A stretch of 64,000 nt of DNA from Oceanicaulis sp. HTCC2633 (GTDB lineage Bacteria > Pseudomonadota > Alphaproteobacteria > Caulobacterales > Maricaulaceae). The translations under genes were made by a program, and so were the position numbers. Location: contig NZ_CH672428.1 in the NCBI RefSeq assembly GCF_000152745.1, forward strand, positions 2,209,272 through 2,273,271. Reading direction: 5' to 3'. Under the pieces are notes generated by a model. The model saw only the letters and a program-made list of their open reading frames with translations. It had not been told where the DNA came from and made no database searches. Of the stretch, positions 4,684 to 13,785 are shown in pieces (position 1 is the stretch's first letter; every line of letters starts with the position of its first letter).

Positions 4684-5364
4684 ATGTTGGACGATCTCAT
4701 GCGACACCTCCCCTACTGGATCGGCGGCTTCATGCTGCTGCCCTTCATGCTCTGGGCCGGGATGTTCCTGGCCTTTCCGGGCGACAAGCCCGGGATCACG
4801 GATTCTCCGCTGACTGCGGCGCTTGTGGCGGTCTCCCTGCCGCTGGCGCTGTTTCACTACATTGCCGGGCTGGGCTTTGTGGCCAATTCCATGAGCGGGC
4901 AGGCCGGCGAAGTCCTGCCTGTCTGGGGACCGGCGCGCTGGGCGCAGCGGGCGATGGCGCCCCTGACCGTGGTGCTTTCGGTGCTGGCGGTGGTGTTCCT
5001 CACTCAGGCGGGCGAGGGCTGGCTGACCGCGCTTGCGGTGGGGCTGGGCGGTCTGGTGATGGCGGGCGTCATGGTCGCCGCGCGTCGTCCCACGCGCTCG
5101 GCGGTCCTGCATGTGCGCCCTGGCGAGTGGCTGGACAGCCTTGTGATGGCGCTCGGTCGCGGCTTGCTTTACGTGCCGGTGTTGGGCGGGCTGCTGCGTG
5201 AAGCGGGGCGCGACCCGCATCGCGGCGTGCCGATGCTGCTGCTGAATCTGGCGCTTCTTATGGGCGTTCTGGTCGCGCTGTTCGGGTTCTCCGTCCTGGT
5301 GATCCCGGCATTCCTGGCCCTGCCCTTTGTCTTCTACGTGCTGCTGGTCCTGGCGGCGGGCTAG
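4684..5364 (+). CDS. Multi-pass inner-membrane protein, unknown function
   Basis: A 226-residue very hydrophobic protein with about five predicted membrane segments (near residues 10-30, 40-65, 95-140 and 180-225) and an Arg-rich cytoplasmic loop (VAARRPTRSA). No catalytic motif is visible and I cannot assign a family. The start is uncertain: neither the ATG at 4684 nor the in-frame ATG at 4699 has a strong ribosome site. It is separated from the preceding pair by about 150 bases containing TA-rich sequence that could hold its promoter, and it converges on the S9 peptidase across a shared hairpin. Confidence 0.6.
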   Translation: MLDDLMRHLPYWIGGFMLLPFMLWAGMFLAFPGDKPGITDSPLTAALVAVSLPLALFHYIAGLGFVANSMSGQAGEVLPVWGPARWAQRAMAPLTVVLSVLAVVFLTQAGEGWLTALAVGLGGLVMAGVMVAARRPTRSAVLHVRPGEWLDSLVMALGRGLLYVPVLGGLLREAGRDPHRGVPMLLLNLALLMGVLVALFGFSVLVIPAFLALPFVFYVLLVLAAG

Positions 5365-5422: not shown

Positions 5423-7471
<2,049 letters not shown>

Positions 7472-7572: not shown

Positions 7573-8253
7573 TCAGGGCGCCGGGGCGTCTTCATCGGGC
7601 GCCGTGTTCAGGTAGAGCGACAGATAGGCTTCGAGCGCCTTCACAAGTTCGGCGAACATTTCGCTCAGGGCCTTGGGGTCGCGCATCTGGGCGCAGCGCG
7701 TTTCGATCGACATGAAGATCTCGACCGTGAACCTCGCCACCAGATCGGGATCGCCGCCAGAAAAGCCATCCTGGCCCTGGCGCCAGCGCGCGCTGAGCAT
7801 GTCGGCCACATGACCGATCATCACCGCCTTGGCGTCCCGCAATTCCTGGCTGGTCTGCATCACCAGGAGGAGTTTCCAGTAGCCCGGATTCTCCATCAGG
7901 AAGAGATGCAGGCGGGTGATGATCGTGCCGGTCACCTCGCGCCAGTCATCCCAGCCGGGTTGGGAATTGGCGAGACACTCCTCGATGACCGCAATGATCT
8001 CCTCGTTCAGGTCCTCGAACAGATAGGCGAACACCGCCGACACATTCTTGAAGTAGCGATAGACCGAACTCACCGGAACGCCGGCGCGATCCGCAATCAG
8101 GTTGGTGGTGATGGCTTCGGCGTCCATCTCCTCCACCAGCTTTTCAGCGGCGTTCAGAATGGCGTCCAGACGCTGGCGAGCCCGGCGTTGTTGCGGCTTG
8201 TCGCGCAGGCGTGATTGCCGGGGCAGGGCGTCATTGGCGGGTGTTCCGGGCAC
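7573..8253 (-). CDS. TetR/AcrR-family transcriptional regulator
   Basis: A 226-residue regulator with an N-terminal TetR helix-turn-helix (ILNAAEKLVEE, then ITTNLIADRAGVPVSSVYRYF, about residues 28-75) and a C-terminal ligand domain. The open frame extends to a TTG at 8301. GTG 8253 is preferred because AAGGA lies 7 bases upstream, while the TTG has no ribosome site. It diverges from the TonB-dependent receptor at 8382, and the perfect palindrome at 8313-8325 between them is the obvious operator. It is therefore the likely local regulator of the receptor/beta-helix/dihaem protein block. The inducer is unknown. Confidence 0.9.
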   Translation of the reverse strand: MPGTPANDALPRQSRLRDKPQQRRARQRLDAILNAAEKLVEEMDAEAITTNLIADRAGVPVSSVYRYFKNVSAVFAYLFEDLNEEIIAVIEECLANSQPGWDDWREVTGTIITRLHLFLMENPGYWKLLLVMQTSQELRDAKAVMIGHVADMLSARWRQGQDGFSGGDPDLVARFTVEIFMSIETRCAQMRDPKALSEMFAELVKALEAYLSLYLNTAPDEDAPAP

Positions 8254-8292
8254 AGGGCGATCCTTGGTTCTACAGGCTCTAACTAGTGTGGC

Positions 8293-8322
8293 TTGATCCA
8301 ATTTGCAAAATGAGAATAGTAT
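8293..8322 (+). promoter_or_regulatory. Candidate promoter of the TonB receptor operon
   Basis: TTGATC (8293-8298) and TAGTAT (8317-8322) are 18 bases apart, about 55 bases upstream of the receptor ATG. The -10 element lies inside the palindrome at 8313-8325, so an occupied operator would block it. Assigned by similarity to sigma-70 elements only. Confidence 0.4.
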
Positions 8323-8325
8323 TCT
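8313..8325. promoter_or_regulatory. Candidate TetR operator palindrome
   Basis: AGAATA-G-TATTCT is a perfect 13-bp palindrome located between the divergent TetR and TonB-receptor genes. Its AT-rich composition stands out from the surrounding high-GC DNA. Size, symmetry and position are typical of autoregulated TetR operators. Confidence 0.55.
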
Positions 8326-8381
8326 GTTTCTAAAACCGGGATGAGGGAATACCCCACCGGTCTCTGGGGGAGAGGAACACC

Positions 8382-10808
8382 ATGAAACAGGCGCTCTTTA
8401 TCGGCGTATCCGCAGGCGTGATGGCTCTGGCCGCACCGCTTGCGCCGGCGACGGCTCAGGAAGGCGTGTCCAATACAGGTGTGGACACGATCACGGTCAC
8501 CGCCCAGCGACGGACGCAAAGCATCCAGGACGTGCCGCTGGCCATCGAGGTGGTGACGGCGGACAATATCGATGCGATCGCCGCGACCAGCCTCAGCGAT
8601 CTCGACCAGTTCGTGCCGGGACTTGATGTCAGCGGCGGCAGTCCGACCCAGCCGCGATTTTCCATCCGCGGCGTGTCCACTTCCGATTTCGGCGTAGGCA
8701 CCGACCCGGCGGTCGGGGTGTATGTGGACGGCATCTACGCCGCCCGTTCGGGCGCGTCCCTGCTGGCGTTCAACGATGTCAGCCGCGTCGAGGTGATCAA
8801 GGGCCCGCAAGGCACGCTGTTCGGTCGCAACTCGGCGGCGGGCGCCATTTCGGTGACGTCCAATGACCCTAATGTGGAAGAGGTGGAGGCCGAGCTCGGC
8901 CTGCGCCTGGGTGAGAACAATCTGCGCCGGTTCGAGGGTTTGCTGAACATTCCCTTCGCCGAGACTTTCGCCCTGCGACTGAACATGGTGGTGAACCAGC
9001 GCGACGGCCTGCTGACGGATGCTGCAACCGGCGAGGATTACGACCGTCAGGATAATTGGGCGGTGCGTGGCGCGATCGGCTGGGAGCCGACGGCGCTCAC
9101 CGATGTGGTCTTCCGCTACACCCGGGAGAAGCTCGATGAGGACGCGCGTCCGGCCATCGGCATCACGCCTCTGCCCGCCGCGCCGGCGCGGCCCGGCGTG
9201 CCGGTGGACCCGTCAACGCTTCTCAATCCGTTCGACACGCCCATCACCAATGACGTGACGTCCAATCTGGAAGCGCGGGACCTGGATGAGGCGTCCCTGC
9301 ACATCACCCATGACTTCGGTGCGTTCACCCTGCAGTCGATCTCGGCCTTCCGGTATTTTGAAACCTCGAACCGTCAGGACGAGGACGGCACCAACCGGAT
9401 CGAGCTCTATTTCGACACCAACAATATCGAGCAGAACCAGAGCTGGTATCAGGAGTTCCGGCTGTCCGGCGCCAATGATCGCTTCGACTGGGTCGCCGGG
9501 ATCAGCTATTATGACGAGAACGCCACCCAGACGAGCGAGACCGACGCCTTCACGGACTCCATCGAGACCGTGTTGTTCAATCTGGGAGCGGGCACGCCCT
9601 TCACCGATCTGCAATATGGTCTGCTGATCCCTTACAATCTGCCCCAGCGTCTTCTTGGTCTGAGCTGGGACGAGTCCATGTACAATCGCGGCGATTTCTC
9701 CGCGTTTGCCGCCTTTGCGGACGTGGAGTGGCGCATCACCGACCGGTTCTCGCTGATCGGCGGCGCGCGCTATACTCGTGACGAGAAAACTTTCAGCTGG
9801 CTCAACGGCCCGCGCGTCGCGCCGGAACTGGATCAGGCCCTGGCCGAACTGGACGCCCTGGGCGTTCTGGCGCTGGCGGGCGTCAGCCCTGCCGATTTCG
9901 GCTTTGACGTGGTGTTCGACCTTTCCAGTGCGGCGGGCCTCGCCTGTGACAATGGCGTCACCGTCGCGGAGGGCGTCGTCTGCGAACGGTCAGACAGCTG
10001 GAATGATATCAGCCCGCGTCTGGTGGCGAACTTCCGGGCGATGGACAACCTGCTGCTCTTCGCGTCCTACACACAGGGCTACAAGGCGGGCGGATACAAT
10101 TCGGTCGAAGTGGGCTCACGTTTCGAGAACGAGGATGTGGACAATTTCGAAGCCGGCCTGAAATGGACCGCGCCGGACAATTCCATGCGGGTCGCCGCCT
10201 CGATCTTCCACTATCTGTACAAGGACAAACAGGCCGTGCGCTTGGTCAACAATGTGGGCGGTTCCGGCGTGCCGCAATATGTGGTCGAGACGTCTGACGA
10301 GACCGGGACCGGCGTGGACTTCCAGGTGGACTGGGCGCCGCTGGCCGGGTTCGAGGCCTATCTGAACCTGCAGTATATCGATGTGACCTTTGACGAGCGG
10401 ATCACCCGTTCAGGCGTCGACCTGTCCGGTCAGCCCACAGGCACGCCGGAATGGTCCATCTCGACCGGCGCCAGCCAGACCTGGGCGATGCCGAACGGAT
10501 CCGAGGTCGAGCTCCTGGGCGCTTACGCCTATACCAGCGAACGCCGGTGCAATACCGAAAGCCGCCAGCAGCTCGGTTGCGCCGTCATTGGCGGCGTGCA
10601 GAACGGCGAGGCCACGCAGCGTCTGGACCTCCGGGCGTATTGGCGTGACGCCAATGATCGGCTCCAGCTTGGCGCCTACGTCAATAACGTCTTTGATGAG
10701 CAATATATCGACGGCGTGGGCACGCTGACGGCGGACACTTTCGGAACCGTGCACGCCCAGATCACTCCGCCGCGCATGTGGGGTGTGGACCTGCGGGTCC
10801 GGTACTGA
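8382..10808 (+). CDS. TonB-dependent outer-membrane receptor
   Basis: An 808-residue outer-membrane active transporter. It has a signal peptide ending near A-T-A-Q-E, a TonB box (DTITVTAQRR) and a plug domain with the conserved RGVSTSDFG, VYVDGIY and RVEVIKGPQGTLFGRN motifs. A 22-strand-type barrel follows, ending in the aromatic C-terminus GVDLRVRY. It lacks an N-terminal signalling extension, so it is not a transducer. The substrate cannot be deduced. Sequence style matches the large receptor families expanded in marine alphaproteobacteria. It is followed after 20 bases by the beta-helix lipoprotein gene and is probably controlled by the divergent TetR. The ATG is preceded by GGGGGAGAGGAAC. 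Confidence 0.95.
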   Translation: MKQALFIGVSAGVMALAAPLAPATAQEGVSNTGVDTITVTAQRRTQSIQDVPLAIEVVTADNIDAIAATSLSDLDQFVPGLDVSGGSPTQPRFSIRGVSTSDFGVGTDPAVGVYVDGIYAARSGASLLAFNDVSRVEVIKGPQGTLFGRNSAAGAISVTSNDPNVEEVEAELGLRLGENNLRRFEGLLNIPFAETFALRLNMVVNQRDGLLTDAATGEDYDRQDNWAVRGAIGWEPTALTDVVFRYTREKLDEDARPAIGITPLPAAPARPGVPVDPSTLLNPFDTPITNDVTSNLEARDLDEASLHITHDFGAFTLQSISAFRYFETSNRQDEDGTNRIELYFDTNNIEQNQSWYQEFRLSGANDRFDWVAGISYYDENATQTSETDAFTDSIETVLFNLGAGTPFTDLQYGLLIPYNLPQRLLGLSWDESMYNRGDFSAFAAFADVEWRITDRFSLIGGARYTRDEKTFSWLNGPRVAPELDQALAELDALGVLALAGVSPADFGFDVVFDLSSAAGLACDNGVTVAEGVVCERSDSWNDISPRLVANFRAMDNLLLFASYTQGYKAGGYNSVEVGSRFENEDVDNFEAGLKWTAPDNSMRVAASIFHYLYKDKQAVRLVNNVGGSGVPQYVVETSDETGTGVDFQVDWAPLAGFEAYLNLQYIDVTFDERITRSGVDLSGQPTGTPEWSISTGASQTWAMPNGSEVELLGAYAYTSERRCNTESRQQLGCAVIGGVQNGEATQRLDLRAYWRDANDRLQLGAYVNNVFDEQYIDGVGTLTADTFGTVHAQITPPRMWGVDLRVRY

Positions 10809-10828
10809 TTTCCGGGGAGGATGAACCA

Positions 10829-12061
10829 ATGAAGACCATCAAGACCGCCCTTGTGGGCGCCAGCCTGCTCACCCTCGCGGCATGCGGGGCTCCGGAAGAG
10901 AGCCGTGATGTCTCCGGATTTGACCGGGTGTATCAGAACACCCTGATGAACGCCTTGCTGGATGCCCAGCCGGGCGATGTGATCGAGATTCCCGAGGGGG
11001 AGTTCATCATTGAACGCGGCCTGTCCCTCACGGTGGACAATGTCACCATACGCGGCGCGGGCATGCATCACACCGTATTGTCCTTCGCCGAACAGCGCCA
11101 GGGGGCGGAAGGCCTTCTGGTGTCGGGCGTGGAGGGTTTCACGCTCGAGAATCTCGCTTTCGAGGATACGGTAGGAGATTCCGTGAAAATCTCGGACTCC
11201 ACCGATGTGGTGATCCGCAATGTGCGCGTTGAGTGGACCAATGGTCCGTCTACGGATAACGGGGCCTATGGCCTCTATCCGGTCCAGTCCACCAATGTGC
11301 TGATCGATGGCGCGGTGGCGATCGGCGCCTCGGACGCCGGCATCTATGTCGGCCAGTCGGAAAACGTCATCGTCCGGAACTCCCGCGCCGAATACAATGT
11401 GGCGGGGATCGAGATCGAGAACTGCAACAATGCCGACGTTTACGGCAATACCGCCATCAACAACACCGGCGGCATCCTGATCTTCAACATGCCCAACCTG
11501 CCCCGTCCGGGCGCCGGAACCCGGGTCTTCGACAACGATGTGTTCGAAAACAACACCAGTAATTTCGGCCATGCCGGGACACCGGTCGCCAGCGTGCCGG
11601 CCGGTTCGGGCATTCTGATCAACTCCAATGACGATGTGGAGATCTTCAACAACCGGCTGAGCGATAACCGCACCGCCCACGTGATCATCTCTTCCCTGTA
11701 CACGTCGGGTTATGAGGATCTGGGCGTGACCGAGGGGTTCGATCCCTATCCGGAAGCCATCTACATCCATGACAACATCTATTCCGGCGGCGGCGGCAAT
11801 CCGGATGGTCTGGAGCTCCAGGCCCTGCGCGTGGCGCTCTTCGGCCCGACCGGGCGTCTGCCGGGCGTGCTCTGGGACGGCTATGTGGATGAAGAGAAGA
11901 TGATCAATGGCTCCCTGCCGGATGATCTGCGTCTGTGCGTGACCGACGCCCAGGTCGTCAATGCGGACGCGCCCAACGGCTTCTCCAGCCCGCATGTGGC
12001 GGACTCGGCGCTGTTTGACTGCACTCTCGAGCCGCGTCCGGCGGTGGAGCTGGACCTGTGA
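10829..12061 (+). CDS. Parallel beta-helix repeat lipoprotein (TIGR03805-like)
   Basis: A 410-residue lipoprotein with lipobox L16-A-A-C19. ATG 10829 is chosen because GGGGAGG lies upstream and the signal peptide begins there. Most of the protein is repetitive, with turns of the type VIRNVRVEW, VLIDGAVAI, GIYVGQSENVIVRNSRAEY and GIEIENCNNADVYGNTA. This is the signature of a right-handed parallel beta-helix as in polysaccharide-binding and -cleaving proteins. From memory it resembles family TIGR03805, described as occurring in a two-gene pair with TIGR03806. Here its stop codon overlaps the next start (GTGA), matching that pairing. No lyase catalytic residues can be assigned. Binding or processing of a surface substrate imported by the upstream receptor is an inference. 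Confidence 0.85.
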   Translation: MKTIKTALVGASLLTLAACGAPEESRDVSGFDRVYQNTLMNALLDAQPGDVIEIPEGEFIIERGLSLTVDNVTIRGAGMHHTVLSFAEQRQGAEGLLVSGVEGFTLENLAFEDTVGDSVKISDSTDVVIRNVRVEWTNGPSTDNGAYGLYPVQSTNVLIDGAVAIGASDAGIYVGQSENVIVRNSRAEYNVAGIEIENCNNADVYGNTAINNTGGILIFNMPNLPRPGAGTRVFDNDVFENNTSNFGHAGTPVASVPAGSGILINSNDDVEIFNNRLSDNRTAHVIISSLYTSGYEDLGVTEGFDPYPEAIYIHDNIYSGGGGNPDGLELQALRVALFGPTGRLPGVLWDGYVDEEKMINGSLPDDLRLCVTDAQVVNADAPNGFSSPHVADSALFDCTLEPRPAVELDL

Positions 12062-13212
12062 TCCGCAGCCTGCTCGCGAGCCTGTGCCTGTTATGCCTCC
12101 TGTGCGCCTGCGCACAGGAGGCGCCGCCCGAACCGCCGACGCCGACCTTTGTTCCTGACGGGCGGCCCGAAGCGCTGTCAGACTGGGGCCAGCTTGCCGT
12201 CGGCGGCGGAACGCTGGTTCTGGGCGAGGCGGTGACGCCGTATCATCTGGCGACGGCGCTTTTCACCGATTACGCCCAGAAGCTGCGCACGGTCTGGATT
12301 CCGGCTGACGCCGGTCCCGCCGGCTATGACCCCGAGGGCGCGTTCGACTTTCCGGTCGGGACGGTGATCACCAAGACCTTTTACTATCCCCGCGCCGGCG
12401 GCGGTTTCGAACGCGTCCTGAAGTCGAATGACGGCATGGCGCATTACACGGATCGCCAGATCGATCTGGACGCCGTGCGCCTGATCGAGACACGGGTGCT
12501 GGTGCATCGCGAAACCGGCTGGGAAACCCTGCCCTATGTCTGGAATGCCGAGCAGACCGAGGCCTATCTCAGCCGCGCAGGAGCCTTTGTGGATCTGACC
12601 CTGGTCTCGGACGCCGGGGAGGAGGCGCTGGGCTATATGGTGCCCAATGTGAACCAGTGCGCCGGCTGTCACGAGACCGACACCACGGACGGGATCGGCG
12701 CCCGCCCCATTGGCCCGCGCGCGCGACACATGAACACCGATTTTGAGTATTTCGACGGTGTGGCGAACCAGATCGATCACTGGTCCGAACAGGGCCTGTT
12801 GCGCGGCGCTCCCCCCGCACAGGCGGCGCCCCGCAACGCGTCCTGGCAGGGGGAGCCGCCCCTGATCGGCGCAGCGCTTGATGAGGCTGCGCGCGCCTAT
12901 CTCGACATCAACTGCTCGCATTGCCATTCGCGAACGGGACCGGCGGACACCTCCGGCCTGTATCTGGAAGCGGATGAACCCGTGGGGCCGCATCTGGGCG
13001 TGTGCAAGCTGCCGATCGCAGCCGGGCGCGGCACGGGTGACCGTCGCTATGACATCGTTCCCGGGGCGTCAGAGGAATCCATTCTGACCCACAGGCTCGC
13101 CAGCGTGCAGTCCGATGTGATGATGCCCGAACTGGGGCGCGCCCTTGATCATGAGGAAGGGGTGGCGCTCATCACCGCCTGGATTGATGCGATGAGCGGC
13201 GGTTGCGGTTAA
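12058..13212 (+). CDS. Dihaem c-type cytochrome-like lipoprotein (TIGR03806/SO2930-HNE_0200 type)
   Basis: A 384-residue exported protein that starts with GTG overlapping the previous stop codon by four bases, indicating translational coupling. The signal peptide is Cys/Leu-rich and ends in a lipobox-like L-C-A-C18, so lipid anchoring is likely. Two haem-binding motifs are visible: C201-A-G-C-H205 and C286-S-H-C-H290. Methionines in the C-terminal part (SDVMMPELGRALDH) could be axial ligands. From memory this is the partner family of the beta-helix protein (TIGR03806, named for Hyphomonas HNE_0200 and Shewanella SO2930). The function of the pair has not been established to my knowledge. A redox step on the ligand bound by the beta-helix protein is an inference. 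Confidence 0.85.
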   Translation: MIRSLLASLCLLCLLCACAQEAPPEPPTPTFVPDGRPEALSDWGQLAVGGGTLVLGEAVTPYHLATALFTDYAQKLRTVWIPADAGPAGYDPEGAFDFPVGTVITKTFYYPRAGGGFERVLKSNDGMAHYTDRQIDLDAVRLIETRVLVHRETGWETLPYVWNAEQTEAYLSRAGAFVDLTLVSDAGEEALGYMVPNVNQCAGCHETDTTDGIGARPIGPRARHMNTDFEYFDGVANQIDHWSEQGLLRGAPPAQAAPRNASWQGEPPLIGAALDEAARAYLDINCSHCHSRTGPADTSGLYLEADEPVGPHLGVCKLPIAAGRGTGDRRYDIVPGASEESILTHRLASVQSDVMMPELGRALDHEEGVALITAWIDAMSGGCG

Positions 13213-13296: not shown

Positions 13297-13785
13297 ATGT
13301 TCGTTCGCTCGATTTCCGCCTGCGCTCTCGCCAGCATCGCCCTGACCGCCTGCGCGACGTCCCAACCGGTGTGTCGTCCGGCGGATCCGATGGAGCGGGC
13401 GGCGTTCGGCGCGGTGGTCGCCCATGACCAGGCGCGCCTGGCGCAACTGATGGCCCAGGGTCCGACGGCTGACGAGGTCCGGGCTCTGGATCCGCGGATC
13501 GAGGCACAGGTCTTCGGCCAGCGCATGGGGGACACGGCCGTGCGCACTGTCCTGATGCAACCGCCCCTGTGCGTGGTGGACGGCGCCGCCAGTAATGGCG
13601 CCCGGATCAGCTATGTCTTCCCGCAAGCCCGGTTCGACGCCTTGCAGAATCCTGATCTGGAAGGGCTGGAACGTGGACGGCCCGGCCAGGACCACATCGC
13701 CTGCCGCTATGAGGAGACGGCGGAAGGCTGGCGCCTGTCGGATGCATGCCTGAGCACCTTCGCGCCGCCGCCGTCTGCAAGCTGA
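13297..13785 (+). CDS. Small lipoprotein, unknown function
   Basis: A 162-residue lipoprotein with lipobox L16-T-A-C19. The frame is open from 13231, but ATG 13297 starts the signal peptide and has GGAG 6 bases upstream. The mature part begins with a Cys (QPVCRPADPME) and has further cysteines (LCVVDGAA, IACRYEET, DACLSTF) that could form two disulfides. The N-terminal ankyrin-like phrase AHDQARLAQLMAQGP does not extend into clear repeats. I do not recognise the family. It lies about 85 bases after the dihaem protein gene. An inverted repeat GGGACAGG/CCTGTCCC (13240-13280) precedes it, so cotranscription is not certain. Confidence 0.65.
   Translation: MFVRSISACALASIALTACATSQPVCRPADPMERAAFGAVVAHDQARLAQLMAQGPTADEVRALDPRIEAQVFGQRMGDTAVRTVLMQPPLCVVDGAASNGARISYVFPQARFDALQNPDLEGLERGRPGQDHIACRYEETAEGWRLSDACLSTFAPPPSAS

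Follow-up and report, generated by a model that had tools for sequence, protein, structure and literature searches.

What might a TonB-dependent receptor and its regulator bring to a beta-helix lipoprotein and a dihaem lipoprotein of TIGR03805 and TIGR03806, which we take to be co-occurring families without known function? The question is raised by positions 7573-13212 of a 64,000-nucleotide stretch of Oceanicaulis sp. HTCC2633 (NCBI RefSeq assembly GCF_000152745.1, contig NZ_CH672428.1, positions 2,209,272 to 2,273,271 of the forward strand), hereafter the window. A first-pass annotation had described this locus as one unit of four genes. Profile searches and comparison with related loci revealed that both lipoproteins belong to these families, that the beta-helix protein (BH) and the dihaem protein (CYT) are strictly paired and sometimes fused, that one receptor clade and a regulator gene are linked to a part of these pairs, that a second BH lineage has exchanged its haem partner, and that one face of the beta-helix is invariant. 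Our preferred answer, to which we give slightly less than an even chance, is a module for ligand-inducible uptake and periplasmic oxidation, in which BH binds and probably oxidises the imported ligand and electrons pass to c-type haem. The ligand and the chemistry are what we infer.

The locus and its four genes

Open reading frames and profile searches recovered all four genes at the positions annotated. The receptor gene (8382-10808, plus strand) encodes a TonB-dependent outer-membrane receptor of 808 amino acids with the Pfam domains Plug (E 7.1e-21) and TonB_dep_Rec (beta-barrel, E 5.4e-28), and belongs to the pair-linked clade described below. Twenty bases after its stop lies ATG 10829, the likely start of the TIGR03805 parallel beta-helix lipoprotein BH (10829-12061, plus strand, 410 amino acids); the mechanical open reading frame begins at 10778, and family score, spacing and a GGGGAGG ribosome site in front of the ATG support the call. 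CYT, the TIGR03806 (SO2930-type) dihaem c-type lipoprotein (12058-13212, plus strand, 384 amino acids), was called from its family score and model. As the annotation had said, its GTG start overlaps the TGA stop of BH (GTGA at 12058-12061). The lipobox reads LAAC in BH and LCAC in CYT.

From two conserved CxxCH motifs, CYT is a predicted c-type dihaem protein. These are CAGCH at residues 201-205 (12658-12672, plus strand), with C201, C204 and H205 invariant, and CSHCH at residues 286-290 (12913-12927, plus strand), with C286, H288, C289 and H290 invariant, each in 48 rows. The CYT model (pLDDT 94.8, pTM 0.90) shows a beta-rich part followed by the dihaem region. Judging from the spacing of 20 bases and then a 4-base overlap, receptor, BH and CYT are likely to share one transcript. 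The fourth gene, divergent from the receptor (7573-8301, minus strand), encodes a TetR-family regulator that matches TetR_N (E 4.7e-9) and TetR_C_15 (E 2.4e-9), both over the Pfam cut-off. Its start is uncertain and lies at TTG 8301 or at GTG 8253, the latter being preferred by the gene caller.

BH and CYT form a recurrent pair

The family assignments of the annotation were borne out by profile searches. BH scored 424.9 bits against TIGR03805 (curated cut-off 141.5) and CYT 356.9 bits against TIGR03806 (curated cut-off 313.3). We assembled 143 loci, consisting of 60 genome stretches, two plasmid records, the 80 best named matches and the window. Using tblastn, BH was found adjoining CYT, BH first and on one strand, in 137 of them. 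The six exceptions are L143, L144 and L145, which were chosen as carrying TIGR03806 without BH, the plasmid locus L148 of the same kind, L146 of the second lineage, and L176 at a contig end. Where both genes were called, they are separate with BH first in 119 loci and fused in one protein in six, with a median gap of one base; the gene caller found no pair in 18 of the 143 loci, and tblastn finds it in 12 of those 18. Found in 137 of 143 loci that had been fetched for BH or CYT, the pair is not a chance arrangement. BH-CYT is already a known pair, and its adjacency in these 137 loci is new here.

Genome samples gave a corresponding picture. The TIGR03805 cut-off was passed in 39 of 61 genomes (the window's own and 60 relatives). 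In a phylum sample of 398 genomes, 45 passed TIGR03805 and 37 passed TIGR03806, all 37 lying among the 45. Two of the other eight genomes (G136, G249) hold fusions with a TIGR03806 part under the cut-off, and six hold the second lineage; among the TIGR03806 matches without BH, a second match in G242 (a large protein) and the weak small ones were set aside.

The two proteins also vary together. Their pairwise distances correlate (r = 0.76, uncorrected for species descent). Furthermore, in 113 of 114 called separate pairs two features occur together or are missing together, namely two or more cysteines within the C-terminal 70 residues of BH and the cysteine of a GxCK motif in CYT; this count omits 18 of the 132 non-redundant loci (12 without a called pair and six fusions). 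The co-occurrence fits a coupled evolution of BH and CYT, even if a single split in the tree accounts for most of it. Literature searches confined to open-licence papers found no report of the pair's function, which is weak evidence of absence; PMC4837345 lists SO_2930 in a localisation table.

The TIGR03806 domain occurs in other company as well. All four of the BH-less proteins scanned (L143, L144, L145, L148) contain a glucose/sorbosone dehydrogenase domain, and the TIGR03806 haem domain therefore plausibly accepts electrons from a dehydrogenase. These proteins, 1158-2341 residues long, combine the sugar dehydrogenase domain with repeats, F5/8, or starch-binding, PKD and DUF1592/DUF1588 domains.

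A receptor clade that accompanies the pair

The annotation had tied the pair to a TonB receptor. A receptor of the window's clade (over 240 bits) lies within 3 kb of the pair in 29 of the 132 non-redundant loci, the window included, and none was seen farther than 3 kb from the pair within the compared stretches. These receptors are placed downstream (24) or upstream (4) on the strand of the pair, and in one case on the opposite strand. Receptor and BH distances correlate (r = 0.69), and 10 changes are required to explain the linkage on the pair tree (FastTree). In the receptor tree, 28 linked receptors fall into one strongly supported group of 30 rows, together with a copy of one of them and the receptor of the second-lineage locus L146.

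We also asked where this clade occurs in whole genomes. At E 1e-100, with up to 16 candidates scored per genome, it was present in three of the 61 genomes, each time beside BH. At E 1e-70, with two candidates scored per genome, it was present in nine of the 398 genomes and beside the pair in eight; it occurs in 8 of 37 pair genomes vs 1 of 361 others (Fisher p 2e-8). In the ninth genome, G376, a divergent TetR gene stands next to the receptor, and the contig holds a second-lineage BH at another place. That one receptor clade travels with the pair is new here. The tie proposed by the annotation is thus supported, with the clade beside the pair in eight of nine genomes and in three of three relatives. 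It is qualified by the numbers without such a receptor, since it adjoins the pair in 8 of 37 pair genomes, and three of the 61 relatives carry it as against 39 with TIGR03805. Homologous pairs do adjoin TonB receptors repeatedly, though most have no linked receptor, and the receptor is an accessory to the BH-CYT pair.

Receptor and TetR could instead be chance neighbours of a housekeeping redox pair. In L102 and L152 BH stands 105 and 102 bases behind a homologue of the window gene 4684-5364, with neither receptor nor TetR in between, and the linked receptor is absent for most pairs. In L149 and L249, TetR and receptor intervene between that homologue and BH, and in the window a peptidase gene does as well. 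Adjacency in eight of nine genomes is hardly expected by chance, one receptor clade adjoins the pair in various arrangements among both alpha- and gammaproteobacteria, and a receptor is also found near the second BH lineage. We therefore strongly disfavour a chance association and consider it very improbable.

Single loci show further variants. On a Novosphingobium plasmid (L147, 8780-12572) the receptor adjacent to the pair is split by an IS5-family transposase gene, and in a Maricaulis bin (L150, 13363-13662) just a short stretch of the linked receptor stands beside TetR and the pair. Downstream of the pair, three Caulobacter-type loci (L189, L195, L203) have an acyltransferase, a pyrroloquinoline quinone (PQQ) alcohol dehydrogenase and a TonB receptor of a different kind. 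A PQQ alcohol dehydrogenase in three Caulobacter-type loci and a GMC dehydrogenase in one locus were set aside as not general.

Receptor-linked loci usually carry a regulator gene

By tblastn within 5 kb, an AraC-type gene was found in 19 of 29 receptor-linked vs 3 of 103 unlinked loci, and a TetR gene resembling the one at the Hyphomonas locus L164 in 7 of 29 vs 3 of 103. Pooled, TetR or AraC is present in 26 of the linked and six of the unlinked loci. A looser count from gene calls over the same distance gave 21 of 29 linked loci (nine of them lacking pair calls) and 15 of 103 unlinked ones, so the contrast is weaker than 26 vs 6. Moreover, the 19 AraC loci are not independent, because all lie within one fork of the pair tree. 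That receptor-linked loci usually carry a TetR or AraC gene is new here, narrowed by the looser count. The regulator assigned to this unit is accordingly tied to the receptor (26 of 29 linked loci) without being exclusive to it, as TetR genes also occur near some unlinked pairs. The AraC protein beside the gammaproteobacterial loci is QhpR-like yet under the cut-off (146 of 250 bits, one protein scanned).

Between the TetR and receptor genes of the window lies a likely TetR operator (8308-8331), which the annotation had not noted. It consists of a perfect 13-base inverted repeat, AGAATAGTATTCT, at 8313-8325 within a longer imperfect palindrome. A 17-base pattern including AGAATAGTATTCT matches the genome exactly once, at this locus. 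When the 23-base operator stretch was compared with other TetR intergenic stretches, it was identical in L149. The likeness is weak in L151 (3 of 200 shuffles as good), L156 (2 of 200) and L163 (11 of 200), and not clear in L164 (27 of 200), L185 (54), L120 (167) and L150 (193).

A second BH lineage has exchanged its haem partner

Thirteen loci, six chosen at a TIGR03805 score of about 180 bits and seven more of the same kind, represent a second BH lineage. In all of them a MauG/MbnH-like dihaem gene directly precedes BH, and BH has a C-terminal CxxCH motif of its own (13/13). A small cytochrome c gene precedes the MauG-like gene in 12, and 12 have a TonB receptor no more than four genes away; neither was seen in L247. 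The receptor of L146 alone was placed on the tree, the rest being called by BLAST. The MauG-like proteins match CCP_MauG at about 1e-54 (four scanned). Six were scored against the named families and reached 216-225 bits for MbnH (cut-off 362.85) and 174-188 bits for MauG (cut-off 443.85). Because these scores stay under the cut-offs, we regard the enzymes as a separate subfamily.

The arrangement is nearly constant. Among 196 genomes of the bacterial family concerned, BH lies directly downstream of 41 of 42 strong MauG-like matches (over 600 bits; 11 weaker ones of 206-248 bits, at no listed BH, were dropped). The single miss is 355 bases from a contig start, and among the 41, the BH of G535 matched just in sub-threshold pieces. 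The second-lineage operon of L260 has a receptor nearer the window's type (359 bits vs 182), and therefore the haem partner changes while beta-helix and receptor stay. This exchange of CYT for a MauG/MbnH-like enzyme is new here. In the window itself, ten proteins scanned gave no match to MauG or MbnH, and CYT has no CCP_MauG match at E 0.01. Profile comparison of CYT with the MauG-like set gave no recognisable homology (hhalign probability 6.9%, E 0.0052, over 21 columns at one of the haem motifs). Six further loci (L250-L255) form a third set, in which a BH of about 600 residues (1075 in L255) stands beside a CYT of about 500; their listed neighbours include no receptor.

A MauG/MbnH-like enzyme in an operon-like run with a TonB receptor brings to mind a metallophore or metal system like MbnT/MbnP/MbnH. 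There the receptor would import a metal chelate, BH would be its periplasmic binding partner, and the haem protein would reduce the metal or modify the partner. In keeping with this, BH matches Pfam NosD over the cut-off (45 bits, cut-off 23.6, E 1.1e-11), and PMC3621798 describes MbnP/MbnH pairs near receptors and, in MopE, a tryptophan converted to kynurenine in the copper site. The tryptophan W136 of BH, by comparison, is absent precisely in the MauG-partnered lineage (0/13). Scores stay under the curated cut-offs on both sides, with 30.6 bits for BH against TIGR04247 (NosD, cut-off 300) and 118.6 bits for the receptor against TIGR01783 (TonB-dependent siderophore receptor, cut-off 223.5), and the operator pattern with its single exact match is unlike an iron-regulon box. 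Among 16 diverse BH rows no His, Cys or Met is kept in 15 or more, which makes a copper site on BH unlikely; for this lack, copper binding as suggested by the NosD likeness was ranked second. Taken together, we consider a metal system unlikely.

An invariant face of BH

Across 141 BH proteins of all three sets, a count that omits the 12 of 132 non-redundant loci without a called pair, Y147, P151, D169, Y173, G175, E195, E197, N198, N212, N236 and N245 are invariant. The codons of the conserved face run from K120 to residue 220 (11186-11488, plus strand) and include Y147, D169, Y173, E195, E197, N198 and N212. Several of the conserved Gly and Asn positions may be structural. Other positions follow the haem partner: residue 136 is Trp in 128 of 128 CYT-partnered proteins and missing as such in 13 of 13 MauG-partnered ones, and the same 13 carry Phe for Y150 and Met for Q176.

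The model of L061, a fused relative, contains a confident beta-helix. Its best structural matches are the polysaccharide lyase RbmB (E 6e-10) and AlgE4/AlgE6 epimerase modules. A search of the PDB by sequence gave no convincing relative of BH or CYT, and a viral fold library gave no match at E 0.001. These folds raise the possibility that BH is a glycan lyase, hydrolase or epimerase acting on an imported oligosaccharide, with the haem protein in a separate, later oxidation. That some TIGR03806 proteins carry starch-binding or F5/8 domains beside the sugar dehydrogenase domain would agree with it. On the other hand, the fusions and the near-constant pairing argue for one joint BH-CYT step, and in an alignment by eye the catalytic Asp and His of AlgE appear to be Tyr and Val in BH. 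Aldehyde dehydrogenases beside some loci do not suggest a polysaccharide either; such genes lie within 5 kb in 6 of 29 linked vs 4 of 103 unlinked loci, a suggestive difference only, as some matches are weak. A glycan-cleaving or epimerising BH is thus doubtful.

A proposed uptake and oxidation module

We return to uptake coupled to periplasmic oxidation. BH takes the place of a dehydrogenase in the fused and paired forms and stays when the haem partner is exchanged; for this reason we favour it as the substrate-binding and probably oxidising half. TetR would repress the receptor-BH-CYT operon until the ligand or its product is present. The receptor, going by its family, would then carry the ligand across the outer membrane. 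As lipoproteins, BH and CYT would reside in the envelope; residue +2 of their lipoboxes is not Asp, which by the E. coli rule makes the inner face of the outer membrane their probable site. The ligand may be bound on the invariant Tyr/Asp/Glu/Asn face of BH, which would take part in its oxidation, and electrons would go to the dihaem protein CYT and onward to the respiratory chain.

Several points weigh against such a module. We know of no beta-helix oxidoreductase, and no cofactor site is evident in BH; the closest folds to the beta-helix, seen on L061, are lyases and epimerases and not redox enzymes. The fusion model of L061 has a pTM of 0.60 and places its domains without confidence, and a search with the CYT model gave no similar PDB chain at E 0.001 or better. 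A linked receptor is lacking for most pairs (29 of 132 linked), and the looser regulator count and the single fork of the AraC loci belong here as well. Finally, nearly all 143 loci were fetched for carrying BH or CYT, and the 80 named ones were taken as those matching the window best rather than at random.

A more far-reaching version, which we hold to be quite improbable, makes TIGR03805 proteins a new class of oxidoreductase. The cluster Y147, D169, Y173, E195, E197 and N198, perhaps with a tyrosine-derived cofactor or radical, would oxidise the receptor-imported substrate and deliver electrons to exchangeable c-type haem partners, either SO2930-type or MauG-like plus a fused haem domain. 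The partner-specific residues would be Trp136, Tyr150 and Gln176 with the former and none, Phe and Met with the latter. If BH is redox-active, this would be a new use for a fold known from sugar chemistry. The pair occurs in 37 of 398 phylum genomes, and the receptor, regulator, haem-partner swap and invariant face together make it a testable system: uptake could be followed through the receptor, inducers screened with the operator, and mutations directed at the conserved face.

Neighbouring genes

Downstream of CYT on the same strand lies a small predicted lipoprotein of 162 amino acids (13297-13785, plus strand), a possible accessory, without Pfam or NCBIfam family match at E 0.01. Several related loci also have it behind CYT in the same orientation, receptor present or not. 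An S9 prolyl-oligopeptidase-type gene (5423-7471) lies between the upstream neighbour and TetR in the window and is not found in L149 and L249. The closest named relative of the locus among those fetched is that of Oceanicaulis sp. MMSF_3324 (BH 91% identical). Housekeeping neighbours (DnaB, alanine racemase, radical SAM, RelA/SpoT, RecG, transglutaminase/ATP-grasp, squalene-hopene cyclase) were discarded as functional clues, as they look like ordinary synteny.

Comparison with known systems

With the gene pair of TIGR03805 and TIGR03806, named beta_helix_1 and the SO2930/HNE_0200 dihaem family, the window locus shares two proteins over the cut-offs, their order, their lipoprotein nature and fusions in relatives, whereas it adds a receptor and a regulator to families that, as named, carry no function. 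MbnT/MbnP/MbnH likewise places a TonB receptor next to a partner protein and a (MauG-like, methanobactin-associated) dihaem enzyme, and the enzyme of the second BH lineage is MbnH-like (under the MbnH cut-off), but the BH of the window lacks conserved His/Cys/Met metal-ligand residues. AlgE-type mannuronan epimerases and the RbmB lyase have the right-handed parallel beta-helix fold in common with BH, as seen on L061; in contrast, the partner of BH is a haem protein, and the catalytic residues appear changed. Glucose/sorbosone dehydrogenase proteins with a TIGR03806 domain also set a like dihaem domain beside a catalytic domain, which in their case is a PQQ-type sugar dehydrogenase and not a beta-helix.

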